From an uncultured Elusimicrobia bacterium (GTDB lineage Bacteria; Elusimicrobiota; Elusimicrobia; UBA1565; UBA9628): DNA of 54,749 bases. The stretch spans positions 1-54,749 of the forward strand of contig CAIRTQ010000102.1 in assembly GCA_903881545.1 (NCBI GenBank). Direction: 5' to 3'. Made by a program: the position numbers and the translations under genes. This document shows positions 2,673 through 4,880 of the stretch, in pieces (positions within the stretch are counted from its first letter, which is position 1; the number at the start of each line of letters is the position of its first letter). Below the pieces are notes generated by a model, which was given only the letters and a program-made list of their open reading frames with translations, searched no databases and was not told where the DNA came from.

Positions 2673-4079
2673 ATGGCGCTATCTACCGAAGTCCTCGTGA
2701 TCGGCGGCGGGCCCGGGGGCTATGTCGCCGCTCTCAAGCTGGGCAAGCTTGGCAAAAAGACCTTGCTGGTCGAAAAGGACCGGCTCGGCGGGGTCTGCCT
2801 CAACAGCGGCTGCATCCCGTCGAAAGCCATGCTCCACCTGGCCGGCCAGCTGCACAAGGCGCGCAAGTCCAAGGCCCAGGGCGTGGAAGCGCCGGACCTT
2901 CGGCTCAACCTGCCCATGGCCATGACCTGGAAGGACGCCATGGTGCAGGGCTTAAGCCGCGGCATCGCGACCCTGGCCAAGGGCAACGCGGTCACGACTT
3001 TGGCGGGCGCGGCGCGGCTGACCGGCGCGCACGAAGCCGAGGTGGCGACGCCGGAAGGCCCGCAGACCGTTTCTTTTGAGCAGGCCGTCATCGCGGCCGG
3101 CTCGCGGCCGCTCGCCCTGCCGGGCTTCGATTTCGACGGCGTCCGTGTGCTCAGTTCCACCGACGCGCTGGCCCTGCGCGAGGTCCCGCCCAGGCTGCTG
3201 ATCATCGGCGGCGGAATCATCGGCCTGGAGCTGGGCACGATCTTCGCCAAGCTAGGTTCCGCGGTCACCATCGTGGAGTTCCTGCCCGAGGTGCTCACCG
3301 GAATCGAGCCCGACCTGGTAGCGCCGGTGCTGCGCAACCTGAAGAGGCTGGGCGTCGAAGTCATGGTCAGCTCCCGGGCCAAAAAATTCGCGACCGAAGG
3401 CGACGGGCTCGCGGTCACGGTGGAGACCCCGGCCGGGGAGAAGACCGTGGCGGCGGACAAGATACTGCTAAGCGTGGGCCGCTCGGTCGCCAGCAAGGAG
3501 CTGGGCCTGGAGGCCGCGGGCATCGCCTGCGACTCCAAGGGCCACATCCTGGTCAACGAGCGCTATCAGACCAAGGCCCCGAACATCTACGCGGTAGGCG
3601 ATGTGATCGGGCCGCCGTACCTGGCGCACAAGGCGTCGCGCGAAGCCGTGCTCGCGGCCCTGCATATCGCGGGCCGTCCGGCCGAGGCGCGCGGGGCCAT
3701 CCCTTCCGCCATCTTCACGGACCCGGAGATTGCTTCGGTCGGAGAGACCGCGGCCCAGGCCATGGCGCGCGGCGCCGAGGTGCTGGTGGGCCGGTTCCCT
3801 TTCATGGCCCTGGGCCGGGCCCAGGCCATGCGGGAGACGGACGGTTTCGTGCGGATTGTGGCGGACAAAAACTCGCGCAAAATCCTGGGCGGCGCCATCG
3901 TAGGGCCCGAAGCGTCGGATCTCATCGGCGAGCTGTGCCTGGCTGTGAAGGTAGGAGCGACGGTTGAGGACCTGGGCTCGACCGTGCATCCTCATCCGTC
4001 CTTGGGCGAAGCGATCGCCGAAGCGGCGGAGGCCTGCCTGGGCCAAGCCCTGCACATCCTGACCCCGGGAAGGACCTAA
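2673..4079 (+). CDS. lpdA: dihydrolipoamide dehydrogenase (E3)
   Basis: A 468-residue FAD-dependent pyridine nucleotide-disulfide oxidoreductase that reoxidises dihydrolipoyl groups of 2-oxoacid dehydrogenases or the glycine cleavage system. GGGPGGYVAA (11-20) binds FAD, the active-site disulfide is C42/C47 in GGVCLNSGCIPSK, and GGGIIGLELG is the NAD site. The C-terminal HPHPSLGEA holds the catalytic His-Glu pair. Length is typical. An AGGAGA-like ribosome site precedes the ATG. It sits between lipA and the lipB homologue, so the operon joins lipoate attachment to the enzyme that uses it. No E1, E2 or GcvH gene is visible, so the partner complex is elsewhere. Confidence 0.93.
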   Translation: MALSTEVLVIGGGPGGYVAALKLGKLGKKTLLVEKDRLGGVCLNSGCIPSKAMLHLAGQLHKARKSKAQGVEAPDLRLNLPMAMTWKDAMVQGLSRGIATLAKGNAVTTLAGAARLTGAHEAEVATPEGPQTVSFEQAVIAAGSRPLALPGFDFDGVRVLSSTDALALREVPPRLLIIGGGIIGLELGTIFAKLGSAVTIVEFLPEVLTGIEPDLVAPVLRNLKRLGVEVMVSSRAKKFATEGDGLAVTVETPAGEKTVAADKILLSVGRSVASKELGLEAAGIACDSKGHILVNERYQTKAPNIYAVGDVIGPPYLAHKASREAVLAALHIAGRPAEARGAIPSAIFTDPEIASVGETAAQAMARGAEVLVGRFPFMALGRAQAMRETDGFVRIVADKNSRKILGGAIVGPEASDLIGELCLAVKVGATVEDLGSTVHPHPSLGEAIAEAAEACLGQALHILTPGRT

Positions 4080-4086
4080 GGCCTTC

Positions 4087-4680
4087 ATGCTGGTCAGGCA
4101 CCTCGGATTAAAGCCGTACGCCGAGGTCATGGCCTTGCAGTCCGAGATTGTGCAACGGCGCGCCGCCCGGCAAGCCCCGGACACCTTGCTCCTGGCCCAG
4201 CATCCTTCCCTGTACACGCGCGGCGCAGCCAGCCGCCGGCGGCCGGCATGTCGACTGCCCTATCCTTTACGCACGGTGAATCGGGAGGGGGGACTGTTCT
4301 TCTACGGGCCCGGCCAGCTGGCAGGCTATCCGGTGTTCGACCTGCGCGGCCGCGGGCTGACCCTGGACAGTTATGAACGGTCCCTGGAAGGAGTAATCAT
4401 CGAAGCGCTGCTTGACATCGGAGTCAAGGCGATCCGCCACCGGGGCGAAGCCGGGCTGTGCGCCGCTGGCAAGAGGCTGGTCTTCATCGGCGTGGCGGTA
4501 GAAAACGGCATCTCCAGCCATGGCTTCGCGATCAACGTCGACGGCGATTTGGCGCCTCTGCGCCTCATCACGCCGCAGCGCGGCCTGGAGTGGACCTCTT
4601 TGCAGGAACTCTTGGGCCATCCGCCGGATGAGCTCGCGGTGGCCAGGTCCGTGGCCGAAGCCTTCCTACGGTATTTCTAA
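4087..4680 (+). CDS. lipB: LipB-like octanoyltransferase homologue, catalytic Cys missing
   Basis: This 197-residue protein aligns end to end with LipB, which moves octanoate from acyl-ACP to lipoyl domains. GPGQLAGYP (74-82), GKRLVFIG (128-135), with K129 at the catalytic lysine position, and SSHGFAINV (143-151) are clear. However, the acyl-accepting Cys of the PCG motif is Gln (ITPQ, Q164), and the YHGPGQ motif has Tyr in place of His (FYGPGQ). The only nearby cysteine is C125, four residues before K129. Either the acyl-enzyme Cys has moved, or this is a divergent transferase or ligase of the same fold. The gene starts 7 bases after lpdA and ends the lipoate operon, so a lipoate role remains likely. 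Confidence 0.8.
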   Translation: MLVRHLGLKPYAEVMALQSEIVQRRAARQAPDTLLLAQHPSLYTRGAASRRRPACRLPYPLRTVNREGGLFFYGPGQLAGYPVFDLRGRGLTLDSYERSLEGVIIEALLDIGVKAIRHRGEAGLCAAGKRLVFIGVAVENGISSHGFAINVDGDLAPLRLITPQRGLEWTSLQELLGHPPDELAVARSVAEAFLRYF

Positions 4681-4826
4681 TAAGCCGTTGCCGTTGTTTG
4701 CGGTTGGCACCGCGCCAGCGGCGCCAACCCCGGCGCCGCCCTTTCCTATGCGGCGCCGATTCTATAGAAGGCCGGTACCCATTCAATCCATTCCAACGAT
4801 CAACTTTGGTGGGCCATCGCCGCGGG

Positions 4827-4880
4827 CGCCGACCTTTGGTCGGCGTGGGTTCCGGTGCCGGCCTTCGGCCGGCGCCGGAA
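4827..4880 (+). repeat. pair of adjacent strong hairpins in the lipB-aminotransferase gap
   Basis: Two perfect or near-perfect stem-loops stand side by side. The first is 8 bp (4827-4834 with 4838-4845) around a TTT loop. The second is 14 bp with one G-U-type mismatch (4850-4863 with 4867-4880) around a TTC loop. There is no T-run after either, so they are not classical intrinsic terminators. Further upstream (about 4710-4740) GGCGCC blocks also pair. The layout resembles REP/BIME-type elements or mRNA 3'-end stabilisers. The rest of the 279-base gap has no gene that I can support. Confidence 0.55.

Follow-up and report, generated by a model that had tools for sequence, protein, structure and literature searches.

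LIPT1, which is derived from LplA, and LipL both act on lipoyl-GcvH and E2, and the Bacillus-type LipM octanoyltransferase is specific for GcvH. The octanoyltransferase LipB carries a catalytic Cys/Lys dyad, Cys169/Lys135 in Escherichia coli and Cys176/Lys142 in Mycobacterium tuberculosis, an RGG loop (R71-G72-G73 in E. coli) and, in the M. tuberculosis enzyme, a pocket lined by Leu47, Thr54, Arg76, Thr81, His83, and His157 (PMC9307952). E. coli LipB with the K135A/C169A substitutions still binds octanoyl-ACP, with a KD of 36 µM (PMC9307952). The catalytic Cys residues of LipB and of LipM are located on different loops of one scaffold, and the amidotransferases LIPT1 and LipL indicate that this scaffold can switch function after a partial loss of its chemistry (PMC7253636). 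LipB and LipM have been reported to occur together only very rarely among prokaryotes (PMC10332631).

Here we describe a LipB homologue, named LipB', encoded in a 54,749-nucleotide stretch of DNA (the window; GCA_903881545.1, contig CAIRTQ010000102.1) from an uncultured Elusimicrobia bacterium, whose genome assembly comprises 158 contigs and is 93% complete. LipB' shares its fold, its length and an operon with lipA with the LipBs of E. coli, M. tuberculosis (1W66), and Thermus thermophilus (2QHS), and R66, T44, H145, and the GPGQ and HGFA.N motifs are conserved. Unlike these enzymes, it has no catalytic Cys, and it carries Arg in place of the dyad Lys, REG in place of RGG, Phe in place of the pocket Thr, and Tyr in place of the pocket His. 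The E. coli K135A/C169A variant lacks the same two catalytic residues but is engineered, with a wild-type RGG loop and pocket. LipM belongs to the same superfamily, whereas LipB' is of the LipB lineage, none of its loops bearing a conserved Cys; the likeness to LIPT1 and LipL lies in the scaffold, with no sequence affinity apparent here.

Genomic context of lipB'

The lipB' open reading frame (4087–4680, forward strand, as are all genes of the run) encodes 197 residues, begins 7 bases past lpdA and is the final gene of the run queD-like, trxB, lipA, lpdA, lipB'. The first gene of this conserved stretch (412–846) encodes a QueD-like protein of the 6-pyruvoyl-tetrahydropterin synthase family (PF01242, 104.5 bits). 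The trxB gene for thioredoxin-disulfide reductase follows (758–1780 as the longest reading frame; TIGR01292, 385.8 bits), and its true start probably lies downstream of position 846. The lipoyl synthase gene lipA (1614–2660, start uncertain; TIGR00510, 354 bits) has both cysteine motifs intact, CAGARCPNLGEC and CTRACRFC, as has the dihydrolipoyl dehydrogenase gene lpdA (2673–4079; TIGR01350, 512.9 bits) its redox motif CLNSGC. The sequence-only reading of a LipB homologue beside lipA and lpdA thus holds: the reading frame is real and closes a trxB-lipA-lpdA-lipB' operon. The same order from the QueD-like gene onward is found in four other genomes (G002, G003, G006, and G008, by our numbering). 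An aminotransferase gene lies directly downstream of lipB', and the gap between the two (4730–4878) contains the GC-rich inverted repeats GAAGGCCGGTACC / GGTGCCGGCCTTC and CCGGCGCCGCCC / GGCCGGCGCCGG.

In G008, a relative with a canonical LipB, the operon reads trxB-lipA-E1alpha-E1beta-E2-lpdA-lipB, and in twelve family members an E2 gene is located, by position, about 2 kb upstream of lipB. The E1 and E2 genes of pyruvate dehydrogenase (PDH) are missing between lipA and lpdA in the genus studied here, and a true PDH E2 is encoded on another contig in G002, G006, G005, and G001. In the genus g11 (G016 and G022), the PDH operon, lipA, E2, and GcvH are present and lipB was not found, so that a LipM-type protein can apparently serve alone. 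Two side observations concern E2-like genes: in G004, a fused E1alpha-E1beta protein of 653 residues is encoded ahead of a short E2-like protein whose lipoyl domain is divergent (L175:2808-6700), and G002, G006, G014, and G022 contain divergent E2-like genes that give similar partial matches.

Active site and predicted fold of LipB'

LipB' matches the Pfam family LplA-B_cat (PF21948) with 81.7 bits and the TIGR00214 lipB model with 80.3 bits, slightly under the cut-off of 83.55. Its AlphaFold model, built with 29 relatives, has a pLDDT of 94.6 and a pTM of 0.91 and superimposes best, among solved structures, on T. thermophilus LipB (2qhs, TM 0.90), followed here by M. tuberculosis LipB (1w66, TM 0.85). 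The fold is thus intact by prediction, and LipB' is placed within the tree of Elusimicrobiota LipBs, which together with the PF21948 match makes it a member of the LipB fold and sequence family.

The dyad columns were set by phmmer alignments to the solved LipBs 1w66 and 2qht, and the remaining pocket residues were mapped by us from the same alignments. Lys142 of M. tuberculosis LipB (Lys135 in E. coli) aligns with R130, and not with the adjacent K129 (4471–4476 for the two codons), which rules out K129 as the retained catalytic Lys that had been proposed; column 130 is Lys throughout the canonical relatives, while column 129 is variable. The catalytic Cys is likewise absent, as had been read from the sequence, although not through replacement by Gln164: the column of Cys176 was lost with its neighbour in a two-residue deletion after P163 (P163-Q164, 4573–4578). 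By these alignments, both residues of the LipB dyad are gone from the window protein. The RGG loop has become R66-E67-G68 (4282–4290), and the pocket residues Thr81, His83, and Leu47 of the M. tuberculosis enzyme correspond to Phe71, Tyr73, and Ala37, respectively (F71 through Y73, 4297–4305); the earlier assignment of Tyr to the His of the YHGPGQ segment is therefore borne out. Thr44, Arg66, and His145 are kept in the pocket. The features expected of a LipB octanoyltransferase, namely the acyl-accepting Cys, the dyad Lys, the RGG loop, and the pocket Thr and His, are thus all lacking in the window LipB', and the missing Lys, together with a genome devoid of the LplB accessory domain (PF10437), also sets it apart from the LplA lipoate ligases.

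C125 (4459–4461) had been singled out as the sole Cys close to the active site, correctly so, the only other Cys of the protein being C55. It sits five residues ahead of the catalytic-Lys column and is confined to the window species: the column holds Trp in every canonical relative and in three sister copies without catalytic Cys, and Arg in the copy of G003, which is degenerate. A Cys one residue farther on (TGVWC) is common in fully canonical relatives, so a Cys in this region is not diagnostic.

Distribution and selection of lipB' in the genus

The lipB' gene is also found in four other genomes of the genus. The copies of G002, G004, and G006 are each exactly 197 residues long, 68–70% identical to the window copy and 84–86% alike among themselves; that of G003 is a partial copy at a contig edge, with an 8-residue internal gap. 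All five copies form one clade (support 100/100), lack the catalytic Cys and carry Glu at the RGG loop, where all canonical relatives have Gly, and Phe at column 133. Glu67 is accompanied by Thr to Phe71 in all four full-length copies, in which the Ala-Ser pair that follows the catalytic Lys is also changed to Val132-Phe133; the sequence-only reading had listed none of these changes. Other positions are graded within the genus: the catalytic-Lys column is Arg in the window, G002, and G006 (L004 and L006) and Lys in G004 and G003 (L005 and L017), while the pocket-His column keeps His in G002, G004, and G006 (L004-L006) and has Tyr in the window and Gln in G003. A sequencing or assembly error was rejected as the source of the missing Cys, since three other species of the genus share the deletion in separate assemblies and the partial G003 copy also lacks the Cys.

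The LipB' profile matches 54 of the 341 genomes of the phylum. The Thr, His, Lys, and Cys are kept in all 48 Elusimicrobiota LipBs read outside the genus, a count that omits a 49th match, the G046 fragment, whereas none of the five copies within the genus keeps the Cys. At least one genus copy is changed at 16 of 44 near-invariant columns (about a third), and these changes are not significantly clustered in the active site (5/9 versus 11/35, p = 0.17). The gene is missing from G005, a genome of 92% completeness, and was not found in G001 (79% complete), where the absence may be an assembly gap; the retained role is therefore dispensable within the genus. The slot of lipB' in G005, between lpdA and the aminotransferase gene, is filled by a HigBA-like pair, a HigB-type toxin gene and an HTH antitoxin-like gene (L169:2925-3614, reverse strand). 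No lipB was seen in G024, although its lipA/E2 contig apparently stops short of the lipB position, which leaves the absence uncertain. Downstream of lipB', G002 and G004 carry serC-like and serA-like genes (L082 6402-7577; L083 8184-10306), which fits a serine/glycine context.

The dN/dS values among the genus copies of lipB' are 0.14–0.27, compared with 0.10–0.32 among canonical LipBs, and the ratio of LipB to Lpd pairwise distances is 1.34–1.38 when the window species is one of the pair, the canonical median being 1.28–1.33. Ratios between sister copies are noisy (0.65–1.65) because the Lpd histories differ. We observed, in addition, that the lpdA genes of G002 and G004 share 90% identity and are each about 78–79% identical to that of G006, which is discordant with the adjacent lipB' and perhaps due to recombination. 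The stem branch of LipB' is long, at 0.81 changes per site where Lpd has 0.34, and would represent a burst at the loss of catalysis. Judged by substitution rates, purifying selection acts on lipB' as strongly as on an active LipB, and the gene would encode a constrained protein; a plain pseudogene is disfavoured by dN/dS. The earlier argument from the operon that loss of function is unlikely thus stands in so far as some function appears to be kept, most likely one other than octanoyl transfer.

These data bear on whether the gene is instead in slow decay, a functionless remnant that lost its acceptor with PDH and persists because it closes an operon that is expressed. The stepwise erosion, with the Cys gone in five copies, the Lys in three, and the His in two, would fit such a course, as would the internal gap of the G003 copy, the replacement by the HigBA-like pair in G005, the failure to find the gene in G001, and the acceleration on the stem branch. 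Nevertheless, four species retain an intact frame of 197 codons at 68–86% identity with dN/dS no worse than that of active LipB, while free drift since the shared loss of the Cys would have driven this value toward 1, and we regard decay as unlikely, although it is the best placed of the alternatives.

A LipM-type paralogue and the role of LipB'

The genome carries one second member of the PF21948 superfamily, encoded directly behind gcvT-gcvH-gcvP (C50:9579-10271), an arrangement that recurs in the sister genomes and in the wider family. In all 26 genomes examined, the protein has an invariant C139-F140, K155 before LGGALR, and GLYQGS, and several of these relatives carry the gene without lipB. 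Among proteins of solved structure, it is closest to the LplA ligases of Thermoplasma. The LplB accessory domain is absent from the ten genomes checked, the source genome included, which makes the paralogue LipM-like rather than part of a bipartite ligase. It thus matches the LipM layout in its Cys loop, its Lys, its gcvTHP linkage, and the lack of LplB, in a genome that contains lipA; the assignment is based on motif, gene context, and the absent LplB, with the Bacillus subtilis LipM sequence outside the comparison. We take its Cys to be equivalent to Cys150 of B. subtilis LipM, and from its conserved residues and gene context the protein is probably active as an octanoyltransferase.

Of the possible lipoyl acceptors, GcvH alone was found in the source genome. 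No PF00198 E2 was detected in the 93% of it that is covered, and the other Biotin_lipoyl matches read resemble biotin carriers in two cases and an efflux membrane-fusion protein in one, a weak below-cut-off match on C96 being left out; a canonical lipB or an E2 could lie in the missing 7%. LipB and a LipM-like, gcv-linked transferase occur together in most members examined of the Elusimicrobiota family f1, in contrast to the rarity reported for this pair, which suggests that the tasks are divided, LipB serving PDH E2 and LipM serving GcvH.

On balance, we favour LipB' as a conserved pseudo-octanoyltransferase whose fold is kept by selection, lipoylation being carried out by the LipM-type protein and LipA; we hold this to be probable, short of firm. 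LipB' combines the loss of its catalytic residues with a fold under purifying selection, and we infer that it is catalytically inactive and that its role is a non-catalytic one, binding or regulatory. Octanoyl-ACP, or octanoyl-CoA, would be used by the LipM-type transferase (Cys139/Lys155) to form octanoyl-GcvH, which LipA would convert to lipoyl-GcvH, itself re-oxidised by LpdA. The ancestral LipB would have been a member of a lipA-pdhA-pdhB-pdhC-lpdA-lipB operon; departure of the PDH genes from the operon in this genus would have freed it from catalysis, and it would then have changed fast on one branch before being held by selection again. The renewed constraint would probably reflect binding of a pathway partner, acyl-ACP/CoA or apo-GcvH. 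As the E. coli double variant still binds its substrate, a LipB without the dyad could in principle do so, and a binding role for LipB' is plausible. We put forward only tentatively a narrower version, in which LipB' would serve lipoate assembly as a specialised partner without catalysis of its own, binding acyl-ACP or apo-GcvH and adjusting the pathway of LipM, LipA, and GcvH.

A changed reaction appears less probable still than decay. LipB' might catalyse a step that needs no Cys, for instance the transfer of octanoyl or lipoyl moieties between GcvH and another lipoyl domain, by means of R66, T44, and H145. The scaffold is strongly constrained, G002 and G006 possess LipB' along with a PDH E2 elsewhere, and weak or altered chemistry may persist because these three residues remain, two copies keep the Lys and three keep the His. 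One fold is moreover known to host ligase, transferase, and amidotransferase activities, and the assignment of function from sequence only has been termed perilous (PMC7253636). However, the dyad Lys is replaced by R130, F71 probably fills the acyl pocket, E67 alters the RGG loop, and the source genome offers GcvH alone for modification; in addition, G005 has an E2 without LipB', and the g11 genomes manage without LipB.

Finally, that C125 is a relocated, LipM-like catalytic nucleophile, as the sequence-only reading proposed from its position near the catalytic-Lys column, and as the different Cys loops of LipB and LipM might have allowed, is rejected as highly improbable, since it is not conserved among homologues, falls in a LipB Trp column unlike the Cys-Phe loop of the paralogue, has Arg for its partner Lys, and shares its genome with a separate LipM-type gene with intact Cys and Lys behind gcvP, a lipM elsewhere in the genome being what that reading had itself named as counter-evidence.

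To our knowledge, no pseudoenzyme has been known in the lipoyl-transferase superfamily, a family known for enzymes only. Our literature search, in which subscription literature was partly covered, retrieved no described LipB without the dyad and no LipB pseudoenzyme. If our preferred reading of LipB' as a pseudo-octanoyltransferase is true, it is a natural pseudoenzyme that has lost its dyad and yet is selected, and the genus presents a graded series, from a canonical LipB outside it, through copies with the Lys kept and copies with the Lys lost, to a gene replaced. It is also a warning for annotation, as the PF21948 match and the operon context would label lipB' an active octanoyltransferase.
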